From Pleurocapsales cyanobacterium LEGE 10410 (lineage in GTDB: Bacteria; Cyanobacteriota; Cyanobacteriia; Cyanobacteriales; Xenococcaceae), in contig JADEXJ010000012.1 in NCBI GenBank assembly GCA_015207195.1, positions 1 to 64,000 on the forward strand: a stretch of DNA of 64,000 nucleotides, in the 5' to 3' direction. Each line of letters starts with the position of its first letter. Positions within the stretch are counted from its first letter, which is position 1. Below, piece after piece: positions 4,818 to 45,289 of this stretch. The notes below the pieces were generated by a model. That model was not told the origin of the DNA and did not search any database. It saw only the letters and a list, made by a program, of their open reading frames with translations. The position numbers were made by a program, and so were the translations under genes.

Positions 4818-6395
4818 ATGTTTAATCGTGTAATTAATTTGCTCCCTGGAGGGGCAATAGCTTGTGGTGTCTTTTTTTTGACTTGCGATCGCCAAGCGTG
4901 GGCTATGCCCAATCGCGCTGTAGCCGATCCTTTATACAATTATCAAGACGGTTTCGGACAAGTCATCAACGTCAATCAGTTAAGGGATGTTGCTCCAACC
5001 GACTGGGCTTATGAGGCTTTGAGAAGCTTAGTAGAGCGTTATGGCTGTATAGCGGGTTATCCCAACCAAACTTATCGCGGTAGCCAGCCCCTGACTCGTT
5101 ACGAATTTGCTGCGGGATTGAATAGTTGTTTAAATCAAATCGAGCGTCTGATTGCCTCTAATCAATCCGTTGCTGGCGAAGATCTGGCAATGATGCAGCG
5201 TTTAGCTACGGAATTTGAAGCAGAGCTGGCAACCCTAGGAGGTAGAGTAGACGAGCTGGAAACTCGGACTGCTGTACTAGAAGATAATGCTTTTTCCACC
5301 ACTACCAAACTAAATGCAGAAATCGTCAGCTATATTTTGGGTGTTTTTGGCGACGAAAAACCCGATGGGACAGAGGTTGATGACGAAATTACTGTTAGCA
5401 GCCGTATTCGGTTAAACTTTGACAGTAGCTTTACAGGTCAAGATCGATTGCGAGTTCGCCTACAGGCAAGAAATATTACTAGTCCTGCCGAATCTGGAGG
5501 GACTAATTCTCTAGCTCTCAACTTTGAGGGTGACAATAATAATAGTTTTGAAATTGACGACCTTCATTATTCATTTCCCATTACTGAAAAAATCTTTGGT
5601 TTTGCTGGTACGAATGGTGTTGATGTCGATGACGTTTTTGATGTAGTTCCCACCATGGGAATCGCCTATGATACTCTCAGCCTCTTTAGTGCTTACAATA
5701 ATCTGATTTACGACAATGGTAATGGCGGTGGTGCAGCTTTAGGATTAAATATTGAAGTGGTAGACTGGGCAAATCTAGATGTAGGCTATTTCGCCACTAA
5801 TCCCGCCGATTCCGATCCTGGAAATGGTTTGTTTAATGGCAACTATGCTGCTGGGGCCAACCTAAATATTTCTCTTTTAGAAGAGCGTTTAAACATCGCC
5901 TTAGCTTACCTCAGAGCCTATCAGGGCGCGGGTAGTGGTTACGATCTGGCTGGCTTTGTGGGGACTGATGCAGCTACCGATCCTTTTGGCGATCGCGCTA
6001 ATTCTACTAACAATTATGGTTTTGCTACTGGGTTTCAGGTTTTAGAACAGCTGGCGATCGGTGGTTATTTTGGCTATACTACTGCCTCGACAATTGATGA
6101 CGAAGCCGATGCAGATATCTTGAACTGGAGTGCCTATCTCACCTATAGCGATCTTTTAAAAGAGGGATCGGCTTTGGTGGTTAGTTTTGGACAGCCTCCA
6201 AGTCTGAGCGATAGTGAAGGTAATGCTCTAGCGGAAGAACCCAACAATCCTTATCTTCTAAACCTAGAATATCAGTATAGTTTAAACGATAATATTCAGT
6301 TTACTCCTGGGGGCTACGCTTTGTTCAATCCCAACGGTGATTCGGATAACGATACCATCTACGTCGGAACATTACGAACTATCTTTAGATTTTAA
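4818..6395 (+). CDS. SLH-domain OprB-family outer-membrane porin
   Basis: A 525-residue outer-membrane protein: an N-terminal signal region (residues 5-30), an S-layer homology domain (about 52-105, with RDVAPTDWAYEALRSL and RYEFAAGL), a short coiled-coil segment (about 120-155), then a beta-barrel rich in alternating polar residues that ends in a C-terminal aromatic residue (IFRF). This is the standard cyanobacterial porin design, in which the SLH domain binds peptidoglycan. Homologues are described as ion or iron permeable; the solute here is unknown. It follows the amino-acid transporter gene on the same strand. Confidence 0.9.
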   Translation: MFNRVINLLPGGAIACGVFFLTCDRQAWAMPNRAVADPLYNYQDGFGQVINVNQLRDVAPTDWAYEALRSLVERYGCIAGYPNQTYRGSQPLTRYEFAAGLNSCLNQIERLIASNQSVAGEDLAMMQRLATEFEAELATLGGRVDELETRTAVLEDNAFSTTTKLNAEIVSYILGVFGDEKPDGTEVDDEITVSSRIRLNFDSSFTGQDRLRVRLQARNITSPAESGGTNSLALNFEGDNNNSFEIDDLHYSFPITEKIFGFAGTNGVDVDDVFDVVPTMGIAYDTLSLFSAYNNLIYDNGNGGGAALGLNIEVVDWANLDVGYFATNPADSDPGNGLFNGNYAAGANLNISLLEERLNIALAYLRAYQGAGSGYDLAGFVGTDAATDPFGDRANSTNNYGFATGFQVLEQLAIGGYFGYTTASTIDDEADADILNWSAYLTYSDLLKEGSALVVSFGQPPSLSDSEGNALAEEPNNPYLLNLEYQYSLNDNIQFTPGGYALFNPNGDSDNDTIYVGTLRTIFRF

Positions 6396-6419
6396 AGCCA
6401 ATTTCCTGATGATATTTTT

Positions 6420-6490
6420 GTAGCGGACTTGAGATTGCTTGTCATTGCCTGCTTGGATAGAGACGTTTCCTAAAACGTCTCGACCGCTAC
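6420..6490. terminator. nested hairpin between convergent genes
   Basis: Inner arms GAGACGTTT (6460-6468) and AAACGTCTC (6473-6481) form a tight hairpin, and outer arms GTAGCGG (6420-6426) and CCGCTAC (6484-6490) enclose it. It sits between the convergent porin and uraH genes, so a bidirectional terminator role is likely. The inner core resembles a dispersed cyanobacterial palindrome, also represented at 27279-27296. Confidence 0.5.
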
Positions 6491-6505
6491 TTTCTACTTT
6501 CCAAA

Positions 6506-6853
6506 CTAACTACCGCGATAGGTGCTATAAGACCAAGGAGAAACCAGCAAAGGAACGTGATAATGAGCTTCAATGTCGCTAATGCCAAAACGAATTGGAA
6601 TTTCGTCTAAAAACAGCGGAGCGGAATATTGCCCGTACTCAGAAAAATAATTGCCCACGGTAAAAACCAGCTCGTATACCCCTGCCTTAAATTCTACTCC
6701 TGTTAATAACGGTTCATCGGTACGTCCATCGTTGTTAGTTCTTACAGTTTTTAATAAAGTTTTAGAATCCCATCGCCAAAGAGCGATCGCAATGCCCGAT
6801 GCGGGGCAACCATTTGCCGTATCCAAAACGTGAGTTGTTAGATTACCAGACAT
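6506..6853 (-). CDS. uraH: 5-hydroxyisourate hydrolase (transthyretin-like)
   Basis: Hydrolyses 5-hydroxyisourate, the unstable product of urate oxidation, to OHCU. The 115-residue length, the opening [14 protein letters not shown], the [16 protein letters not shown] segment and the C-terminal YRGS tetrapeptide are diagnostic of the HIUase branch rather than true transthyretins. It lies 21 bp downstream of the urate hydroxylase gene and so completes the second step of the same pathway. The following enzyme, OHCU decarboxylase, is not in this window. Confidence 0.95.
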
Positions 6854-6874
6854 AGATTGATGGTTAATTACTTA

Positions 6875-8038
6875 TTAATGCAGTGGACCACCGAGAATTA
6901 TTTTGGCGATCGCTCCTGTGACATCTTTGGGGTCTTCCTGTTTTAATTGTTCGTACCACTGCTGGGTTAAATCTGGTTCTTTGTTGTAAATAGTATCGGT
7001 GCGCTTACGGGCTTTTAAAACCAACTTGGCTACTCGTTCTTTGCGTTCCGCTTCATAACGTTTGAGAGCATCGGCGACGCTGATATTAGTCGTCAACAAA
7101 TAGCGACAAAGTACTTCCGCATCTTCCATTGCCTGACAGCCTCCCTGACCTAGAGTAGGAGTGGTAGCATGGGCAGAATCTCCAACTAGGGCAATTCTCC
7201 CCTGAACCAAATTGGGCAGCGGATCGATGTCGCCTATTTCTAAGCGGTTGACTTGTTCGGGATCGAGCTTATCAATTAGGTTTTGCACTGGTTGCGCCCA
7301 GCCAGCAAAGGTTTCTTTGAGTTCAGCGCGAATCTTGTCTGGCGGTGTGCTTGTTCCCTGGGGTTTGGGACAGCCCATAAAAAAGTAAAAACGATTTCCC
7401 CCCACGGGCATCATCGAGGCGCGTTTCCCCTCCCCAACGTAAATTACCCAGACATCACTTTCCGCCAAATCTGGGCTGGCATCTATCAAACCATTCCAGT
7501 TAACATAACCCGCATAACGAGGCTCGATTTTACCACCATTGAGATAGGTACGTACTACCGAATGTACGCCGTCCGCTCCAATAACTACATCACCCGTAGC
7601 GGTACTGCCATCTTCAAAGATAGCTGTGGCACTTTCCGCATCTTGCTTTACTTCCACGCAGCGCATTCCCATCCGTACATCTGATTCACCAAAGGCAGTT
7701 AACATCATCTGCTGTAAATCGGTGCGAGATACGGGATATGGTCGCTGTCCCACCTGTTCCATCAAAGGAATCAAGTTAACGTTGTTCAGGCTTTCACCTT
7801 GATGAGTAAGATATTCCATGCGGTTCATCTGTCCACCAATGGCAGCAACCTCTTTTCCCAGCCCCAACTTATTAAGAATTTTGATCCCATTCGACCAAAG
7901 AGAAATACCCGCCCCCGCAGGACGCAGCTTACTGGTCTTTTCATAGATCTCTACTTCATATCCCGCCTGGCGCATAGCAATCCCTGCGGACAATCCCGCC
8001 ATTCCCGCGCCAATGACGATCGCTTTTAAGTTGTACAT
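6875..8038 (-). CDS. hpxO: FAD-dependent urate hydroxylase (HpxO type)
   Basis: A 387-residue class A flavin monooxygenase that oxidises urate to 5-hydroxyisourate using NADH and O2. It shows the dinucleotide-binding motif GAGMAG (residues 10-15), a GADGVHS segment and the second FAD motif GDSAHATTPTLGQGG. On sequence alone it could be another aromatic hydroxylase, but its place between a urate-type NCS2 permease and a 5-hydroxyisourate hydrolase makes HpxO the best call. It replaces the cofactor-free uricase found in other organisms. Confidence 0.88.
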   Translation of the reverse strand: MYNLKAIVIGAGMAGLSAGIAMRQAGYEVEIYEKTSKLRPAGAGISLWSNGIKILNKLGLGKEVAAIGGQMNRMEYLTHQGESLNNVNLIPLMEQVGQRPYPVSRTDLQQMMLTAFGESDVRMGMRCVEVKQDAESATAIFEDGSTATGDVVIGADGVHSVVRTYLNGGKIEPRYAGYVNWNGLIDASPDLAESDVWVIYVGEGKRASMMPVGGNRFYFFMGCPKPQGTSTPPDKIRAELKETFAGWAQPVQNLIDKLDPEQVNRLEIGDIDPLPNLVQGRIALVGDSAHATTPTLGQGGCQAMEDAEVLCRYLLTTNISVADALKRYEAERKERVAKLVLKARKRTDTIYNKEPDLTQQWYEQLKQEDPKDVTGAIAKIILGGPLH

Positions 8039-8059
8039 AATTTTTAAATCAGAAAATAG

Positions 8060-8087
8060 TTACTACTTACTACTTACTACTTACTAC
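8060..8087. repeat. heptamer tandem repeat (TTACTAC)x4
   Basis: Four perfect copies of TTACTAC in the 60-bp gap between the permease and hydroxylase genes, followed by a partial degenerate copy. Short tandemly repeated heptamers like this are common in cyanobacterial spacers. Confidence 0.85.
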
Positions 8088-8098
8088 TCCCTACTTGA

Positions 8099-9493
8099 TT
8101 ACTCTCTGCCTGGCAAAATAACATTCAACAACAAAGCGGTGATTCCTCCTGTCGAGATACCAGAGGCAAAAATACTTTTAACTAGTTCGGGCATATTGTC
8201 CAAGATTTCGGGAACAAAGGTAACCCCCAAGCCCAAACCAAGTGACAAAGCCAAAATAATTGAATTGCGTTTAGTAAGGTTGACGCAGGACAGAATTTTG
8301 ATTCCCGCCACGGCTACCGTACCAAACATAACAATAGTTGCACCACCCAATACTGGCTGAGGTAAAGCCTGAAAAACTCCCGCCACGATAGGAAACAAAC
8401 CGAGAATTACAAAAATTGCGGAAATAAAATATCCTACATAGCGACTACCTACCCCTGTGAGTTGAATTACACCATTATTTTGGCTAAAAGTCGTGTTGGG
8501 AAAGGTGTTCAAACAAGCAGCAATAATTGAGTTTATCCCATCCCCCAATACTCCTCCTTTGATGCGTCTAAAGTATTTAGGTCCTTCGATTGGTTCGCCC
8601 GAAATTGCTGAAGTAGCTGTTAGATCGCCAATTGACTCGATCGCCGTAATTAAATATATAAAGGCAAAGGGAACAAACGCAGCAAAATCAAATCCCAGAC
8701 CATAGCGAAAAGGAATTGGTAAGGCAAAAGGTGGTAACCCAGCTAGATTACTAAAGTCTGTTAGACCCAAAGGAATTGAGACTAGATAACCGACTATCAA
8801 ACCAATTACAATCGAGGACATCCGCAGATAATTATTGGTGGTGCTGTTGAGTGCCACAATTACCACCAAGACCAACAACGCTACCATCAAATATACTGGA
8901 CTACCAAAGGTTTCATTATTTTGGGCTGGTACACCACCGCCTATGGAGGTAATGCCAACTTTAACTAGAGTTAAGCCGATTAAGGTCACTACTACTCCTG
9001 TTACCAATGGTGTAATGATCTTGTTAGCCAAGTGTAAAAAACGACTGATAATAATTTCGACAAACGCCCCAAAAAAGCACAAGCCAAAGATCAGCCCCAA
9101 AGCATCTTGAGCCGTACCGCCAGAACTTTTAACCGCTAGTCCCGCAGTGATAATTGGTCCTAAAAAAGCAAAGCTAGTCCCCTGAACACTTAATAATCCC
9201 GAACCCACTGGTCCAAATCTTTTCGCCTGAATAAAGGTAGCAATACCTGAAACCACCAAGGACATACTGAGAATAAAAGTCGTATCCGCAGGCGGTACTT
9301 CCAACGCCCCACAGATAATTAAGCCAGGGGTAATGATACCTACAAAACAGGCAAATACGTGCTGTAATGCGACAAAGAGCGATTCGACAAACGGGGGACG
9401 CGCTTCTAGCCCATAAATTAAATCTGATTCAATTGAAGCGGGTGCTTCGGTTTTAATTTTGTCTGATTCCAAACTTATTTCTTGATTGGTCAT
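8099..9493 (-). CDS. NCS2-family urate/xanthine permease
   Basis: A 464-residue polytopic membrane protein of the nucleobase:cation symporter-2 family, with about 12-14 hydrophobic segments. The motif GSGLLSVQGTSFAF and the downstream SQNNGVIQLTGVGSRYVG region are typical of the xanthine/urate branch. It probably brings urate (or xanthine) into the cell with protons, supplying HpxO and UraH encoded directly downstream. The three genes run in one direction with gaps of 60 and 21 bp, so they look like one operon. Exact substrate is inferred from context. Confidence 0.88.
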   Translation of the reverse strand: MTNQEISLESDKIKTEAPASIESDLIYGLEARPPFVESLFVALQHVFACFVGIITPGLIICGALEVPPADTTFILSMSLVVSGIATFIQAKRFGPVGSGLLSVQGTSFAFLGPIITAGLAVKSSGGTAQDALGLIFGLCFFGAFVEIIISRFLHLANKIITPLVTGVVVTLIGLTLVKVGITSIGGGVPAQNNETFGSPVYLMVALLVLVVIVALNSTTNNYLRMSSIVIGLIVGYLVSIPLGLTDFSNLAGLPPFALPIPFRYGLGFDFAAFVPFAFIYLITAIESIGDLTATSAISGEPIEGPKYFRRIKGGVLGDGINSIIAACLNTFPNTTFSQNNGVIQLTGVGSRYVGYFISAIFVILGLFPIVAGVFQALPQPVLGGATIVMFGTVAVAGIKILSCVNLTKRNSIILALSLGLGLGVTFVPEILDNMPELVKSIFASGISTGGITALLLNVILPGRE

Positions 9494-38254: not shown

Positions 38255-38400
38255 AGAAGACAAAGTCGTAAACCACCTTAAGCAAATTTGTTATCTCAAC
38301 TCTCATTAGCCACAAGAAAACTAATAACTAATAACTACTTCAGTAAATACCAAAAGAATATTAGAATAAATAACAAAGCTAAAAATAAATATTGAGCCTA

Positions 38401-39225
38401 ATGGATAATCAACTGCTGTGGCATAATTTTTACCAGGAAATAAATCGCCCAGATAAAGAGATAGATTTAGCAACAGCTTCTCTTTATTTCTCTCAAGCAG
38501 AATATCCAGATTTAGATGTTCGAGAATACTTAAATATTTTAGATGCGATCGCTTCAGAAATTGAGCCTCAGTTACCAGCAGAACTTTATCCCCTTAAAGT
38601 AATAAAAACAATTAACTATCATCTTTTTGACCGCTTGGGATTTCAGGGAAATCAAGAAGATTATTACGAACCAGAAAATAGCTTTTTAAATCGAGTAATC
38701 GATTATAAAACAGGCATCCCCATCACCCTTTCCGTAGTCTATTTAGCAATTGCCCAACGCCTGAATTTTCCTATGGTAGGAATTGGCATGCCAGGACATT
38801 TTTTAATCCGTCCAGAATTTGAAGAGGCGGGGATTTTTGTCGATCCTTTTAATCGCGGAGAAATTTTATTCCAGCAAGATTGTCAGGAAAAACTACAGGA
38901 AATTTATCAACAACAAATTGAATTAAAACCCAAATTACTTGCTCCCGTAAGTAATAAACAAATATTAGCAAGAATGCTAAACAATCTAAAGTTTATTTAT
39001 CTACATCGGCGGGAATTAGACAAGGCTTTAGGTACTATGAGTGGTATTATTAAAATCTTTCCCGAAAATGCGATGGAAATACGCGATCGCGGTTTATTAT
39101 ATTATCAGTCAAAACGCTGGAGGGAAGCGATTGTCGATCTGGAATATTTCCTGAAAATTGCACCCCACAGTGAAGATGCGCCGATGATCAAAGTCTTGTT
39201 AGACAAAATGAATCGGGTGTCTTGA
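38401..39225 (+). CDS. SirB1-like transglutaminase-fold protein with TPR tail
   Basis: A 274-residue protein of the SirB1/transglutaminase-like family. The core is shown by DYKTGIPITLSVVYLAIAQRL (near 105) and GIGMPGHFLIR; a C-terminal TPR-like part ends the protein (about 195-274). No clear catalytic cysteine triad is evident, as in other members of this family. The function is unknown. The frame also contains a TTG three codons earlier (38392), but ATG at 38401 is preferred. Confidence 0.8.
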   Translation: MDNQLLWHNFYQEINRPDKEIDLATASLYFSQAEYPDLDVREYLNILDAIASEIEPQLPAELYPLKVIKTINYHLFDRLGFQGNQEDYYEPENSFLNRVIDYKTGIPITLSVVYLAIAQRLNFPMVGIGMPGHFLIRPEFEEAGIFVDPFNRGEILFQQDCQEKLQEIYQQQIELKPKLLAPVSNKQILARMLNNLKFIYLHRRELDKALGTMSGIIKIFPENAMEIRDRGLLYYQSKRWREAIVDLEYFLKIAPHSEDAPMIKVLLDKMNRVS

Positions 39226-39310: not shown

Positions 39311-40450
39311 TTATTCTCTAGCTACTGCTAGGTCGAAATAAAAAATGTTGCCTCGATCAAGTTGCGATCGCACGCCAATTGTTCCTTGATGCAATTCTAC
39401 AATGCGACTACATAGTGCTAGTCCAATACCGCTACCTTCTACTCGGTTCTTGCCAACCCGTTGAAATAGGGCAAAGATCTTTTCTTCATCTTCGGGAGAA
39501 ATTCCCGCTCCATTATCAGTGACGTAAAGCTGCCATCGTCCAGACTGCGACTGCGCCCAGATCTTAATTTCTGGAATGTTAGCGGTATTGTGAACGATCG
39601 CATTTTTAATTAGGTTGCTGATTAATTGGGTTAGTAACTGCTCGTTGCCTCGCACGGTGGGCAGTTGCGTCCAGTCTACTTTAGCCTGACTGTCGGCAAT
39701 AACCTGCTGTAAATTTAACACTGCTCGTTCGACTACCAGATTCATATCGACTGGCTCGAAAACGATGTTTTCTTTAGCTTTGAGCTTGCCATAGTTCAGC
39801 ATTGCTTTGATCGTCCGCTCTAGGTTTGTTGCCGAGCGGTATCCGATCTGCACTATTTTTCGTGTCATCGGATTAATGGAGTCGTCTTTGCTTAACATTT
39901 CCAGACCAAGAACGATCACATTGAGGGGATTACGCAGCTCGTGAGCTACCATGTGACTAAAGTTCTCTAATGCTTGGTTGCTTTCCCGAAGCTGGTATAG
40001 GGTATCCCGCAAAACATATTGCTGTCGCCGACTTTGCAGACACGAGCGAACTACCGAGATAAATTCGTGCTGCTTGAGGGGCATTTCTAACAAAACGAGA
40101 CTGCCGTAATATTCTGCATTACGCAAAAAAGTCATACAGGAGGGAAACCGCCGACAATCTTTGAGCAGCAAAATTACGGGAATATCCGACCACTCTGGCT
40201 GATTGTTGAGACACTTAGCCAAGTCCCTAATTTTTTCCTCAGTGGTCAGTACCTCCTCGGTAATCACCACCAAAGAGGCATCAGTTTGGATGGCATCGGC
40301 AACCGTTTGAACTGTAGGGGCGCTGACGCAGACGAAACCTTGAGATTCGAGGGTTTGTCGCAATACTATAGCATTTCGCCCAATGCTGGTAGATAGAACG
40401 ATATGTTCTTTGCTATCGAGACGGGAGCGGGAATTAGAGTTGCTATTCAT
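39311..40450 (-). CDS. sensor histidine kinase with N-terminal receiver-like domain
   Basis: About 379 residues from the ATG at 40450. The N-terminal part (about 15-125) has the length and hydrophobic pattern of a response-regulator receiver, but the acidic pocket is not evident (IVLSTS, then VVITEE), so it may be a pseudo-receiver. Then comes the phosphoacceptor HELRNPLN and an HATPase domain with LISNLIKNAIVHN, DNGAGISPED and GSGIGLAL. There is no membrane helix. It overlaps the KaiC-like gene by eight bases; an earlier ATG at 40465 is created by the local duplication. Confidence 0.82.
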   Translation of the reverse strand: MNSNSNSRSRLDSKEHIVLSTSIGRNAIVLRQTLESQGFVCVSAPTVQTVADAIQTDASLVVITEEVLTTEEKIRDLAKCLNNQPEWSDIPVILLLKDCRRFPSCMTFLRNAEYYGSLVLLEMPLKQHEFISVVRSCLQSRRQQYVLRDTLYQLRESNQALENFSHMVAHELRNPLNVIVLGLEMLSKDDSINPMTRKIVQIGYRSATNLERTIKAMLNYGKLKAKENIVFEPVDMNLVVERAVLNLQQVIADSQAKVDWTQLPTVRGNEQLLTQLISNLIKNAIVHNTANIPEIKIWAQSQSGRWQLYVTDNGAGISPEDEEKIFALFQRVGKNRVEGSGIGLALCSRIVELHQGTIGVRSQLDRGNIFYFDLAVARE

Positions 40451-41954
40451 GATTATCGAACTCATGATTATCGAACAAATTTTGTACCTCACCTCGATAC
40501 GCTGGCGTTCCCGAAAGAATACCAGAGAACTGACTCAAAGGCTCGCCAATTTCAATGCTGCCAGGTTGAAAGCGCAGCTCGCGAATTCGACGTTCGTGAT
40601 TGCCGTAGCGTTTTTTGTAGACGCTAATCGCCTGGCGTAAAGCTCCCTCAGCTTCAAAGTGTTGCAGCAGCAACACCGTATCGGCTAAATAGCTGATGTC
40701 TATAGGCATCTCCAGATTAGGAGCGACAACTCCATGTTGAGCCACTACTAAAAATGACAGCACGCCCCGACGACTTAGATAGTTGAGCAATTCGTGCATC
40801 TGAGCGACTAACTTCTTAGAATCAGGCATCGAATTGAGATAACCCGTTAGGGTGTCGATGATCACTATCCCCGCTCCCCAGTCCTCAACTTCTTGTTTTA
40901 CGGAGTCGGCGAATTTTCCAGGGCTGATGTCACCCAAGCTAATTTCCTGACAGCGAATCAGGTCTTTCTCGATCCACTGCTCGATCTCCATTCCCAAACC
41001 TTTGGAGCGATTGAGAAAAGTATTGAGCAGCTCGTCGAAGAGAAAAATGGCAACCCTGCCTCCTTGCTTGGCAAAATTATTAGCAAATAGGGATGCCATA
41101 GAAGTTTTGCCCGTACCAGAAGGACCGACTAGCAAACAAGAAGTTCCCGTTAATAAACCTCCGCCAATTAAAGTATCCAATCCTGCTAAACCGCTAGTGA
41201 CCATTCGATCTTTTGATTGTCGAGAGTCTAAAATTTCTTGCCAGTTGGGATACACTTTTATTCCTTGACTGGTAATTTCCAGGTCGTGACTGCCTTGAAG
41301 GTAGTTGCTACCGCGAATCTTGGAAATTTTTAGATAGCGATGGACGCTACCATATTCGGTTTTGTCTTGGGAAAGGGAGATAATTCCGTGGGCGATTGAT
41401 TCCAATTCGCCATCGCCAGGAACTAACTGGCGGTCGTCGGTTAGCAGCACCGTAATATTTTTGCTGACCATATAGTCTCTGATGGTCAAAATCTGCTGTC
41501 GATAGGTAAGAGGATCGTCGGCAAGCATCCGCAGATAGGAAATGCCGTCAAAAATAACGCGGTCAGGCTGTGTAGTTTCGATCGCCTTAGTAAAAGCGGT
41601 CATGGTTTCTTCCAACTCGATTTCGGAAGTGTCGAAAACCGTTTGTCGCTCGATGATCGACCTTAAAGCATCCGCACTACTAAGTTCGTGAAACACGAAA
41701 TCTGAAGGGTCTAGATTTACCACCCTTGCTGTCTGTTTGACACTTTCAATCCTTTGTGACAAGGCAATACACAAAACTTTCTCACCAGCTCGAACACCTG
41801 CTTGCAAAAAGTGTAGTGCTAGAATAGTTTTGCCCGTACCTGGTGCGCCATTGACTAAATAGATCTCTCCTTTTGGTAGCCCTCCTTTTGTTATGACATC
41901 GAGTGCGGAAATGCCCGTAGAAACCCTGCTAATTTGCTGTTTATTGTCGCTCAT
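40443..41954 (-). CDS. KaiC-like two-domain RecA ATPase
   Basis: A 503-residue double-domain KaiC-family ATPase with P-loops GAPGTGKT (36-43) and GPSGTGKT (277-284). The usual Glu-Glu pair of domain I is Ser-Gln (CIALSQ, about 66-67), while domain II retains an acidic pair (FDE, about 307-308). At the KaiC Ser-Thr autophosphorylation site there is S421-Y422 (DISYLADT). No kaiA or kaiB lies nearby, so it is not the clock itself. Its 3' end overlaps the histidine kinase gene, which suggests it is a regulatory partner of that kinase. Confidence 0.85.
   Translation of the reverse strand: MSDNKQQISRVSTGISALDVITKGGLPKGEIYLVNGAPGTGKTILALHFLQAGVRAGEKVLCIALSQRIESVKQTARVVNLDPSDFVFHELSSADALRSIIERQTVFDTSEIELEETMTAFTKAIETTQPDRVIFDGISYLRMLADDPLTYRQQILTIRDYMVSKNITVLLTDDRQLVPGDGELESIAHGIISLSQDKTEYGSVHRYLKISKIRGSNYLQGSHDLEITSQGIKVYPNWQEILDSRQSKDRMVTSGLAGLDTLIGGGLLTGTSCLLVGPSGTGKTSMASLFANNFAKQGGRVAIFLFDELLNTFLNRSKGLGMEIEQWIEKDLIRCQEISLGDISPGKFADSVKQEVEDWGAGIVIIDTLTGYLNSMPDSKKLVAQMHELLNYLSRRGVLSFLVVAQHGVVAPNLEMPIDISYLADTVLLLQHFEAEGALRQAISVYKKRYGNHERRIRELRFQPGSIEIGEPLSQFSGILSGTPAYRGEVQNLFDNHEFDNHE
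40447..40476. repeat. 15-bp tandem duplication at the KaiC-like/kinase junction
   Basis: Two near-identical 15-bp units (differing at one base) encode the C-terminal FDNHEFDNHE of the KaiC-like protein. In the other frame the duplication creates a second possible start codon for the kinase, 15 bp apart. Confidence 0.85.
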
Positions 41955-42141
41955 GTTGTTTATTGTCGCCCATTTCGTGTTGCCTAGCCTATTTACGGGA
42001 GAGATTTATCATAATAAGCTTACAATAAACTAATTTCTCTTCATAGTTGGGGAGCAATCGTACAAAGTAAAGGAGGTTCGATTAGTGATCGTCACCTCGA
42101 ACACGGGATCATTTCATTGAATAAAACAAGAGTTTGAATCG

Positions 42142-43077
42142 GTGTATATTAGCGTTGTAATTCCTACGTATAATCGTTTACCCATACTGCAAAAGTGTCT
42201 TCTTGCTCTAGAAAAGCAGGAGTTTAGCGACGATAAAATTAGCGGTTATGAGATAGTGTTGGTTGACGATGGTTCGAGCGATCGCACCTTAGTTTGGCTG
42301 GCGGAAAACCAGGCTAAATTACCCCACGTCAAAGTATTCGAGCAAAACCATCAGGGTGCAGCAGCAGCCCGAAATTTAGGGGTAACAAATGCCGTGGGCG
42401 ACACGATAGTTTTTATCGATAGCGATTTGGTTGTTACCGAAACTTTTCTTCAGTCTCATGCTAATGCTCTGGCAAAAAACGAACGAGATTTAAACAGCGA
42501 TCGCCTGTTTACCTATGGCGCGGTAATTAATACCAATAACTTTGAAGATCCCACTGCCGAACCTTACAAAATAACCGATTTTTCCGCTGCCTATTTTGCC
42601 ACGGGCAATGTGGCGATCGCCCGTCATTGGTTAGAAAAAGCTGGGTTGTTCGATACGGGTTTTCAACTCTATGGTTGGGAAGATTTAGAGTTGGGAGTAC
42701 GCTTAAAAAAATTAGGTTTAAAACTGATAAAATGTCCCGAAGCAGTGGGCTATCATTGGCATCCCGCATTTGATTTAGACCAAATTCCTTCGGCGATCGA
42801 GCGAGAAATTCAAAGAGGAAAAATGGGGGTTATCTTCTATCAAAAACATCCTACCTTTGATGTAAAAATGATGATTCAAATGACGGTTTTACATCGTCTC
42901 CTTTGGGGCATACTATCCTTGGGCGGAACTCTAAACGAACGCAGCCTAAAGTCTACAATGCAGTGGCTGATTGATCGCGGTAAGCCTCAGTTAGCCGAAC
43001 AGGTAGCTCGGATCTTTCTCAACTGGTATAACGTACGGGCTGTTTATGCAGCTTATAACCAGAAAAATATACGTTAA
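42142..43077 (+). CDS. family 2 glycosyltransferase
   Basis: A 311-residue GT2 enzyme with a GTG start. It opens with ISVVIPTYNRLPILQKCL, has the donor-binding DDGSSDRTL and the DxD-type FIDSDLVV (near residue 94), followed by a GWEDLELGVRLKKLG segment typical of GT2 acceptor-side sequence. No membrane helices, so it acts at the membrane face or in the cytosol. Donor and acceptor are not evident. It lies between two signalling gene pairs, but has its own 187-bp upstream region. Confidence 0.87.
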   Translation: MYISVVIPTYNRLPILQKCLLALEKQEFSDDKISGYEIVLVDDGSSDRTLVWLAENQAKLPHVKVFEQNHQGAAAARNLGVTNAVGDTIVFIDSDLVVTETFLQSHANALAKNERDLNSDRLFTYGAVINTNNFEDPTAEPYKITDFSAAYFATGNVAIARHWLEKAGLFDTGFQLYGWEDLELGVRLKKLGLKLIKCPEAVGYHWHPAFDLDQIPSAIEREIQRGKMGVIFYQKHPTFDVKMMIQMTVLHRLLWGILSLGGTLNERSLKSTMQWLIDRGKPQLAEQVARIFLNWYNVRAVYAAYNQKNIR

Positions 43078-43194: not shown

Positions 43195-44877
43195 ATGAGT
43201 AATCATCAATCTCAAACTGAAGACAGACAAAGGACTAGGTTAGAGTCGGAAACAACCGCAGCCGAGCGCGCTAAAGTTACGGCAACTATTATCGATAGAA
43301 TTCGCCGCTCTCACGATATAGATACGATTTTCAAAGTAACTACTCAAGAGACACGTCGAGTTTTGCAATGCGATCGCCTGATAATTTATCAGTTTAATTC
43401 TGACTGGAGCGGTCAAGCAGTTGCTGAATCAGTGGCTAGTGGCTGGAGTTCTCTATTAGTAAAAGAGCGAGAGCCGATGGAGGGTGATGGTCATGTTCAA
43501 TTAGACCGTTGTTTGATTAGGGATTGGTCTCAGGGAGATTCGGCAGATATTATTCAACCAGATACTTTTCTGCAAGCAACTAAGGGAGGGAAATATGCTC
43601 ACGGACAAAAATTTACAGCAGTAGATAATATTTATACTCAAGGTTTTCCCGACTGCTATGTTCACTCATTAGAAAAATATCAGGCTAAAGCATATTTAAT
43701 CGCACCAATTTTCCAAGGCAAAAAACTTTGGGGTTTACTCGGAGCATACCAAAACGATGGCTATAGATCTTGGCAAAATTCGGAAACCGAATTACTCGTG
43801 CAGATTGCTAGTCAGTTAGCCGTTGCTCTACAGCAGGCGGAATATGTCAATCAACTCAAGCTACAGAAAAAGGATTTAGAGACAACTATTCAAGAATTAA
43901 AGCTGGCTCAACAACAGTTAATTCAACAAGAAAAATTAGCTGCCTTAGGACAGCTCATCGCAGGAGTTGCTCACGAAATCAATACCCCTTTGGGCGCAAT
44001 CCAAGCTTCGGCTGGCAATAATTTTAAAGCCTTTACAACTGCGATCGCCGAATTGCCAAAATTGCCCGCATATCTCAATCTAGAGGAAAGACATACTTTT
44101 TTTCAGTTAATCGAACGCGCCTTAGTTGGTAGACCTATTTTTTCTTCTAGTGAAAAACGCCCCCTCAAACGTCAGATTGCCAAACAATTAAAAGAGCATC
44201 AGATCGACAATGCTAGAAATATTGCTGATCTGTTGATTGATATTGGCATCAGCGATCGTATCGACCCTTATTTGCCTTTGCTCAGGCATTCTCAGGTAGA
44301 TTGGATTTTAGACTTGGCGTACAACTTGACTCGTTTATTAATCAACAATAAAACTATTATTGTTTCAGTAGAAAAAGCTGCCAAAGTTGTTTTTGCACTA
44401 AAAAACTATGCTCGTTTTGATACTAGTGGAGATAAACAATTAGCACAAATACAGGATGGATTAGAAACCGTACTAGAAATTTATCACAATAAACTTAAGC
44501 ATAGCGTCGAGGTTGTACGTAACTATCAAGAATTACCAGATATTTGGTGTTATGCTGACGAACTTATTCAAGTATGGACAAATTTAATTCATAACAGTAT
44601 TCAGGCTATGCAAAACGGCGGTACGCTCACACTATCAACTGCTTTAAAAAATCAGGGGATCGTGGTAGAAATTGGCGACTCTGGCTGTGGCATCCCTGCA
44701 AATCTTAAAGAGAAAATATTTGAAGCATTTTTTACTACCAAACCTACAGGAGAAGGAAGTGGTTTGGGGCTTCACATTTGTCAAAAAATAATTGATAAAC
44801 ATCAGGGAACTATTACCGTAGATAGTCAGCCAGGAAAAACCAAATTTACTGTTTGGCTACCTATCCAAGATCGATGA
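43195..44877 (+). CDS. GAF-domain histidine kinase, cyanobacteriochrome-like
   Basis: A 560-residue soluble kinase. The GAF domain (about 35-215) closely follows the red/green cyanobacteriochrome type: DTFLQATKGGKY, DNIYTQGF, then C154-Y155 where most have Cys-His, then YQAKAYLIAPIFQGKKLWGLL. C154 could bind a bilin. A coiled coil (about 215-250) leads to the phosphoacceptor H260 in VAHEINTPLG. A long insert precedes the ATPase domain with HNSIQAMQNGG, GDSGCGIP and GEGSGLGL. The response regulator gene begins 19 bp later. Confidence 0.87.
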   Translation: MSNHQSQTEDRQRTRLESETTAAERAKVTATIIDRIRRSHDIDTIFKVTTQETRRVLQCDRLIIYQFNSDWSGQAVAESVASGWSSLLVKEREPMEGDGHVQLDRCLIRDWSQGDSADIIQPDTFLQATKGGKYAHGQKFTAVDNIYTQGFPDCYVHSLEKYQAKAYLIAPIFQGKKLWGLLGAYQNDGYRSWQNSETELLVQIASQLAVALQQAEYVNQLKLQKKDLETTIQELKLAQQQLIQQEKLAALGQLIAGVAHEINTPLGAIQASAGNNFKAFTTAIAELPKLPAYLNLEERHTFFQLIERALVGRPIFSSSEKRPLKRQIAKQLKEHQIDNARNIADLLIDIGISDRIDPYLPLLRHSQVDWILDLAYNLTRLLINNKTIIVSVEKAAKVVFALKNYARFDTSGDKQLAQIQDGLETVLEIYHNKLKHSVEVVRNYQELPDIWCYADELIQVWTNLIHNSIQAMQNGGTLTLSTALKNQGIVVEIGDSGCGIPANLKEKIFEAFFTTKPTGEGSGLGLHICQKIIDKHQGTITVDSQPGKTKFTVWLPIQDR

Positions 44878-44896
44878 TTACCAACCCATAACAATT

Positions 44897-45289
44897 ATGT
44901 CTCAATCTGCAATACTTTGTGTCGATGATGAAGTCGTGATCTTAGACAGTTTAAAAGAACAACTCAAGCGTGAATTTGGCGATCGCTTTATCTATGAAGT
45001 AGCTGAAAGTGCTAAAGAAGCCTGGGAAGTAATCGATGAATTACAACAAGACAATATTAAGATTATCGCTATTGTTTCTGATTGGCTGATGCCAGGAATT
45101 AAAGGAGATGAGTTTTTAATTCAAATTCATCAACGTTTTCCCAAGTTAATTACCATCATGCTTACGGGGCAGGCTGACGAAGCTGCAATTGAGCGAGCTA
45201 AGAAACAAGCAAATCTTCATGCCTGGTTGCACAAACCCTGGACGGAACAAGAGCTAACCCAAGTTATCAATACTGCTATTAACAACTAG
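44897..45289 (+). CDS. single-domain response regulator
   Basis: A 130-residue receiver with acidic pocket D10-D11, phosphoacceptor D62 in VSDWLMPG, T90 and K113. There is no output domain. It lies 19 bp downstream of the cyanobacteriochrome-like kinase and is almost certainly its partner, probably acting on another protein. The LHAWLHKPW segment before the C-terminus is typical of receivers paired with such kinases. Confidence 0.9.
   Translation: MSQSAILCVDDEVVILDSLKEQLKREFGDRFIYEVAESAKEAWEVIDELQQDNIKIIAIVSDWLMPGIKGDEFLIQIHQRFPKLITIMLTGQADEAAIERAKKQANLHAWLHKPWTEQELTQVINTAINN

Follow-up and report, generated by a model that had tools for sequence, protein, structure and literature searches.

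The window, a stretch of 64,000 nucleotides from Pleurocapsales cyanobacterium LEGE 10410, contains the gene of a KaiC-like double-domain ATPase that runs into the gene of a histidine kinase. The pair raises the question of what a KaiC-type ring does when its first ATPase domain (CI) has neither of the two catalytic glutamates of KaiC, and what it conveys to the kinase encoded next to it. The initial annotation proposed a timing or ATP-sensing input to a two-component system that is separate from the clock.

The KaiC-like protein

The KaiC-like gene (40443..41954, minus strand) is an open reading frame with an ATG start that encodes 503 residues with the KaiC fold. The Pfam KaiC family, PF06745, matches the protein in two stretches with 228 bits, above the gathering cut-off, and the two domains span residues 10-236 (CI) and 250-488 (CII) approximately. 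Walker A is intact in both, as GAPGTGKT at residues 36-43 of CI (41826..41849, minus) and as GPSGTGKT at residues 277-284 of CII (41103..41126, minus). The Walker B motif of CI, VIFDG, is found at residues 133-137 (41544..41558, minus), and its D136 is invariant in all 69 rows of an alignment of the window protein, its relatives and the genome's own KaiC1, from which the single-domain L046 had been dropped beforehand. CI thus retains the Walker A Lys and Thr and the Walker B Asp; it also has the K-x-R finger with its trans-acting Lys and Arg. A 19-bp tandem duplication (89%) at 41935-41972 lies at the start of the gene and provides an upstream, out-of-frame ATG, whose 10-codon frame overlaps the true start.

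The HMMER alignment with KaiC places S66-Q67 (41754..41759) at the Glu-Glu pair of CI, D307-E308 (41031..41036) at that of CII and S421-Y422 (40689..40694), all on the minus strand, at the position of KaiC S431-T432; the 69-row alignment gives the same assignments. The AlphaFold2 model (pLDDT 81.5, pTM 0.78) matches the KaiC structure along the whole chain (Z 36.5, 3.2 A over 460 residues). In this model S66-Q67 are two and three residues past the strand 60-64, and D307-E308 are likewise placed past the strand 301-305. Because the two pairs are equivalently placed, the structure-guided reading leaves the CI pair where it was. The two-domain protein with Ser-Gln in CI and Asp-Glu in CII, as annotated initially, is therefore common to the HMMER alignment, the 69-row alignment and the model.

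The protein falls outside the circadian KaiC profiles, scoring 145 of 546 bits with TIGR02655 and 241 of 408 bits with NF006799, both under the curated cut-offs. Circadian KaiC is defined by catalytic Glu-Glu in CI and CII and by Ser-Thr or Ser-Ser phosphosites, at whose positions the window protein has S66-Q67, D307-E308 and S421-Y422.

Family and lineage-specific residues

Two of the apparent departures from KaiC were considered as special losses and rejected. Tyr occupies residue 422 in 64 of the 69 aligned rows, and the first CI Glu (residue 66) is absent in the same number; both are the norm of the family. The residues that the initial annotation had read at the phosphosites and at the CI pair are correct, but neither Ser-Tyr nor the loss of the first Glu is an alteration peculiar to this protein. 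The second position of the pair, residue 67, is Glu in 61 rows, Gln in seven and Leu in one, and its CII equivalent, E308, is invariant (69/69). Since the Tyr and the loss of the first Glu are family-wide, it is the second CI Glu that is lost in the window lineage, and in these alignments the change that marks the lineage is the replacement of Glu by Gln at CI residue 67.

The effect of such a change is suggested by a laboratory variant. Excerpts of PMC5007536 describe KaiC E77Q/E78Q as a protein without CI ATPase, with 22% of the ATPase activity left, which is still phosphorylated, is held in the ground state and does not bind KaiB; CI hydrolysis is thought there to trigger the state change of KaiC and of the clock. 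By analogy, the window lineage may be seen as a natural counterpart resembling this variant. In an excerpt of PMC6549140, E77 of T. elongatus, the first Glu of the pair, is named as a catalytic Glu. Since this is the Glu that most of the relatives lack, the CI mechanism of the family may differ from that of KaiC, or there may be none, and Gln 67 may change little, given the uncertain role of each Glu in this KaiC-like family. A CI that is still an active ATPase through another residue, with a neutral Gln and a module working like the proteobacterial ones, is unlikely in our estimate, though it deserves serious consideration. The family as a whole has already departed from KaiC at the first Glu and CI is otherwise well conserved; however, the retention of Glu at residue 67 in most rows, and at its CII equivalent in all of them, argues for an important role.

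The cyanobacterial Gln clade

Orthologues were sought in overlapping samples of 292, 291 and 388 cyanobacterial genomes, where most of the matches belong to another KaiC-like type that is 32-35% identical to the window protein. Four orthologues with 59-65% identity came from the 388-genome search, at a threshold of E 1e-90 or lower. In one family (63 genomes) a fifth was found, split over two contigs, and another family (36 genomes) yielded no further orthologue. The window-type pair is thus patchily distributed, with six genomes in all across the samples searched. Residue 67 is Gln in five of five aligned clade members, preceded by Ser or Ala, and the split sixth copy (L185) reads Ser-Gln; the four members aligned with the window protein are 58-65% identical to it. 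Identities among the ten pairs of members are 56-67% in CI and 56-70% in CII, so that CI is not decaying. The five-row subtree contains about 2.55 substitutions per average site (summed branch lengths), over which the probability that a site evolving at the average rate shows no change is about 0.08; the conservation of the Gln is therefore suggestive and not conclusive.

Gln is also found in L127 and L154, two proteins that share 90% identity and branch together as a lineage of their own close to the base of the proteobacterial-type clade. L154 comes from contig 61 of a cyanobacterial assembly (G973) with 5% contamination, and is either on a contaminating contig or a recent transfer; its identity to the proteobacterial L127 excludes it from the cyanobacterial clade. 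A grouping of the window protein with L127 in the first tree was flagged as a long-branch effect, and the window branch became shorter after the four orthologues were added. One genome, G863, holds both a Gln-type pair (L153) and a locus of the other KaiC-like + REC + kinase type (L186); the occurrence of both in one genome indicates two distinct systems. A search of the open-licence literature for a natural CI-dead KaiC or a pseudo-receiver kinase with KaiC found no report of the Gln clade among the titles and opening lines of abstracts listed.

The kinase and its predicted pseudo-receiver

The histidine kinase (39311..40450, minus strand, ATG at 40450) has 379 residues and is predicted from its HisKA and HATPase_c matches and from the model to consist of a pseudo-receiver, a DHp and a CA domain. 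Its start and the stop of the KaiC-like gene overlap by eight bases (40443..40450, minus), as initially annotated, which suggests translational coupling. Elsewhere in the clade the junction is again an 8 bp overlap in three members, a 14 bp overlap in one and a 5 bp gap in one. An exact 15-bp tandem duplication spans the junction (40447-40476), where it repeats FDNHE at the C-terminus of the KaiC-like protein and creates a possible alternative start for the kinase at 40465. The predicted phospho-acceptor of DHp, H170 (39941..39943, minus), is invariant in 35 aligned kinases.

The pseudo-receiver, delimited by predicted secondary structure and a family match, comprises residues 15-125 (40076..40408, minus) and contains a conserved QPxWSDxP motif at residues 84-91 (40178..40201, minus). 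In agreement with the receiver-like N-terminus of the initial annotation, the domain has a predicted (beta-alpha)5 fold, most blocks of which have pLDDT 70-87 with a five-row alignment. The residues of receiver phosphorylation are absent: the Asp site at the end of strand 3 is T64 and the Lys site at the end of strand 5 is M123, and neither Asp at 64 nor Lys at 123 occurs in any of the five clade members or of 27 proteobacterial kinases. A pseudo-receiver that lacks these residues is expected to serve in protein binding.

The best full-length structural match to the window kinase is LvrB, itself a receiver-DHp-CA kinase, with a large rmsd. The structural matches cover mainly DHp-CA (152-379), and the N-terminal domain was folded only within the whole kinase. 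The 50 structural matches listed for the kinase model include neither a KaiB nor a SasA chain, a result that excludes nothing. According to excerpts of De Luca 2011 (PMC3164672), the N-terminus of the Nt_HK kinases resembles receivers and, weakly, SasA/KaiB (10-16% identity). A KaiB/thioredoxin-like N-terminal domain is disfavoured for the window kinase by the predicted (beta-alpha)5 topology, at the level of a model of the whole kinase. No response regulator is consistently linked to the pair in the loci of the clade.

Co-inheritance of the two genes

In all 30 loci of the proteobacterial type the gene immediately downstream of the KaiC-like gene encodes a kinase that carries this N-terminal domain (27 read from full ORFs; L118 by frame translation; in L112 and L119 the domain was cut by ORF calling). 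A kinase of the same kind follows in L150-L154 and in the split copy L185, and in the four intact orthologue loci it is 49-55% identical to that of the window; the pair is co-conserved in other genomes. The other KaiC-like type is followed by a related signalling protein in 28 of 32 loci under a loose pattern, at a distance above 1.6 kb in two of these. Of the exceptions, L036, L040 and L141 showed no such protein, and L130, whose ORF looks alike, escaped the pattern. In one of the 28, L045 from a Halothiobacillus MAG, a receiver-like N-terminal domain is apparently carried by a GGDEF/EAL protein (5055-8735) and not by a kinase.

The conserved part of the kinases is the N-terminal domain. By Pfam, the 35 kinases of the window and the proteobacterial type include 27 with HisKA and eight with HWE, and 22 have a receiver. 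The N-terminal domain of the window kinase scores above 10 bits with 28 of 28 proteobacterial-type kinases and with none of 28 of the other type, whereas its core has a median of 11 bits with the former and 60 bits with the latter. A profile of the proteobacterial-type N-terminal domains finds the window kinase with 98 bits (E 2e-29). Since the N-terminal domain tracks the KaiC type while the core varies, this domain is the candidate for docking, and its pairing with different kinase cores makes a strong hypothesis for the place where KaiC-like proteins bind. The comparison of loci supports the view that KaiC-like protein and kinase form one co-inherited module. Such co-conservation is evidence of partnership and does not give the direction or the signal.

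Origin of the cassette and the host clock

The pair is bordered on the left by a transglutaminase/TPR protein gene (38392..39225, plus strand) and on the right by a family-2 glycosyltransferase gene (42142..43077, plus), both assigned by domain matches and congener loci. Seven of the 12 other members of the genus were examined for the empty site. The two flanking genes are adjacent in five of them, where 36-254 bp and neither a KaiC-like nor a kinase gene separate them; in the other two the glycosyltransferase gene is absent there. Nine of the 12 congeners carry the other cyanobacterial KaiC-like type instead. In the tree the window protein joins the 30 proteobacterial-type rows and not the other cyanobacterial type (SH-aLRT 99), and the enlarged tree with the orthologues gives the proteobacterial-type + window clade SH-aLRT 100. 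A plasmid collection contains 290 records with a relative, largely from rhizobia and agrobacteria, none of them above 60% identity. The simplest reading of the flanks and the trees is that a two-gene cassette was gained by horizontal transfer.

An acquired pair that is heading for loss would also be patchily distributed, as the six genomes are, and might bear tandem duplications such as those of 15 and 19 bp, one at each gene end. We consider decay very unlikely, however: frames and motifs are intact, the Gln is kept, both genes are 49-65% conserved across families and the overlap is preserved.

Downstream of the glycosyltransferase gene the window contains a second two-component pair, a GAF-histidine kinase with a single receiver protein behind it (43195-45289, plus), neither of which was matched downstream of that gene in one congener (L206).

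The kaiA-kaiB-kaiC1 clock of the genome is on another contig, and the module is for this reason separate from the clock, as had been supposed. KaiB-family matches above the cut-off are on three other contigs, one of them being the kaiB of the kaiABC cluster; the KaiC-like/kinase locus has no kaiA or kaiB. The shared fold and the presence of the clock and of KaiB-type domains in the genome would allow the KaiC-like protein to interfere with the clock, either by entering complexes with KaiC1 or KaiB or by titrating them. This seems scarcely credible, since the protein is only about 26% identical to the genome's own KaiC1, its family is mostly proteobacterial with a kinase partner of its own, and a CI-dead KaiC does not bind KaiB in the excerpts of PMC5007536.

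A proposed model of the switch

The motif states, the co-conservation, the cassette insertion and the predicted receiver-like topology, all established at the level of sequence, are the frame in which the following biochemical steps, which we infer, are set. The preferred reading, to which we give about even weight for and against, is a horizontally acquired module in which an ATP-locked KaiC-like hexamer, non-hydrolysing in CI and active in CII, gates a soluble kinase via the pseudo-receiver. The KaiC-like protein would assemble as a KaiC-type double ring. Since both CI glutamates are gone and the Walker motifs and the trans-acting Lys and Arg are kept, the CI ring would bind ATP, no longer hydrolyse it effectively, and serve as an ATP-dependent assembly platform. 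CII, with its catalytic residues kept, would be the sole hydrolysing and state-changing ring. The translationally coupled kinase would dock on the hexamer via its N-terminal pseudo-receiver, the nucleotide or effector state of CII would set the autophosphorylation of H170, and the output would pass through an unlinked response regulator.

The other mechanism to be weighed is a rudimentary hourglass, in which the KaiC-like protein sets the timing of the kinase through its slow ATPase and its phosphorylation at Ser/Tyr. Excerpts of De Luca 2011 (PMC3164672) describe a specific kinase, Nt_HK, behind KaiC genes whose sites read SY, TY or SF, report co-transcription of the Ramlibacter pair by RT-PCR and propose such timing; the window protein retains S421 and the catalytic residues of CII. 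Yet its CI is without both catalytic Glu, and in the excerpts of PMC5007536 it is CI hydrolysis that drives the state change of KaiC. Moreover, the Ser/Thr of the T426 position, counted back from S421, is missing in five of five clade members, the locus is without kaiA or kaiB, and Tyr stands for Thr throughout the family. The hourglass is improbable on this balance; of the input proposed initially, timing is disfavoured by the CI residues and ATP-sensing remains plausible. Judged by its motifs, the system is more likely an energy- or ligand-gated switch with an ATP-loaded first ring than a clock.

More tentatively, and as a possible rather than a probable history, evolution may have fixed a CI-dead E-to-Q change by which an ATPase that kept time became a static scaffold charged with ATP, on which a single active ring gates the kinase through the pseudo-receiver. 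A lineage that keeps the assembly residues of CI and drops its catalysis would separate the two roles in an evolved system. The module also bears on how pseudo-receivers switch, called a mystery for those of bacteria in excerpts of PMC12632262, because the probable partner of its pseudo-receiver is encoded alongside.

Comparison with known systems

The likeness to SasA is that both are soluble kinases whose N-terminal domain is believed to sense a KaiC hexamer. The N-terminus of SasA is KaiB-like and has a thioredoxin fold, whereas that of the window kinase is predicted to be a (beta-alpha)5 receiver. Among KaiC-family members, ArlH/FlaH is one without full catalysis. The inactivated archaeal KaiC-like ATPases termed iKaiC are another precedent (excerpts of PMC5847659). 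The archaeal inactivated domains sit in other contexts, whereas the window protein is a double ring with an intact CII.

With the circadian KaiC1, KaiC2 and KaiC3 the KaiC-like protein shares the full-length fold and the ATP-binding motifs. According to excerpts of PMC5520375, these cyanobacterial proteins retain the catalytic glutamates of CI and CII and have Ser-Thr or Ser-Ser phosphosites, with Tyr in some KaiC3; the type found in the window is not covered in these excerpts. The KaiC-like protein differs in its Glu pairs, in its low identity (about 26%) to its own KaiC1 and in having no KaiA or KaiB partner at the locus. The cyanobacterial KaiC-like + REC + kinase loci (such as L023, L132 and L186) have the same operon logic and a receiver-like kinase N-terminus, but their KaiC-like proteins are 32-35% identical to that of the window and have mostly Gly/Ser-Glu in CI, an extra single-domain receiver gene is often present, and the N-terminal domain of their kinases belongs to a different family (0/28 match).

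The KaiC + Nt_HK 'dark-blue group' of De Luca 2011 (such as Rta_04330/Rta_04340 of Ramlibacter tataouinensis; excerpts of PMC3164672) and the window both have a double-domain KaiC with Ser/Thr-Tyr, a kinase with a receiver-like N-terminal domain directly after kaiC, and no kaiB in the operon. The match was made by the published description and by a primer whose encoded residues, IVLDSL, agree with the CI Walker B of this type. The window has the downstream kinase with the specific domain, the SY phosphosites and the grouping with the proteobacterial members; its host genome does contain kaiB, unlike the genomes of the group as described, which is a property of the host and not of the module, and the window system is for this reason regarded as a variant of the KaiC + Nt_HK module. 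It differs further from the 'dark-blue group' in its cyanobacterial lineage, in the coexisting kaiABC clock, in the change of the CI Glu to Gln, and in a HisKA core without the C-terminal receiver that many proteobacterial Nt_HK members have. That a KaiC homologue may feed the kinase beside it, as the initial annotation also supposed, was thus published in 2011 for proteobacteria. The KaiC + kinase pair is already known; what is new is a cyanobacterial branch of it with a natural E-to-Q CI ring.
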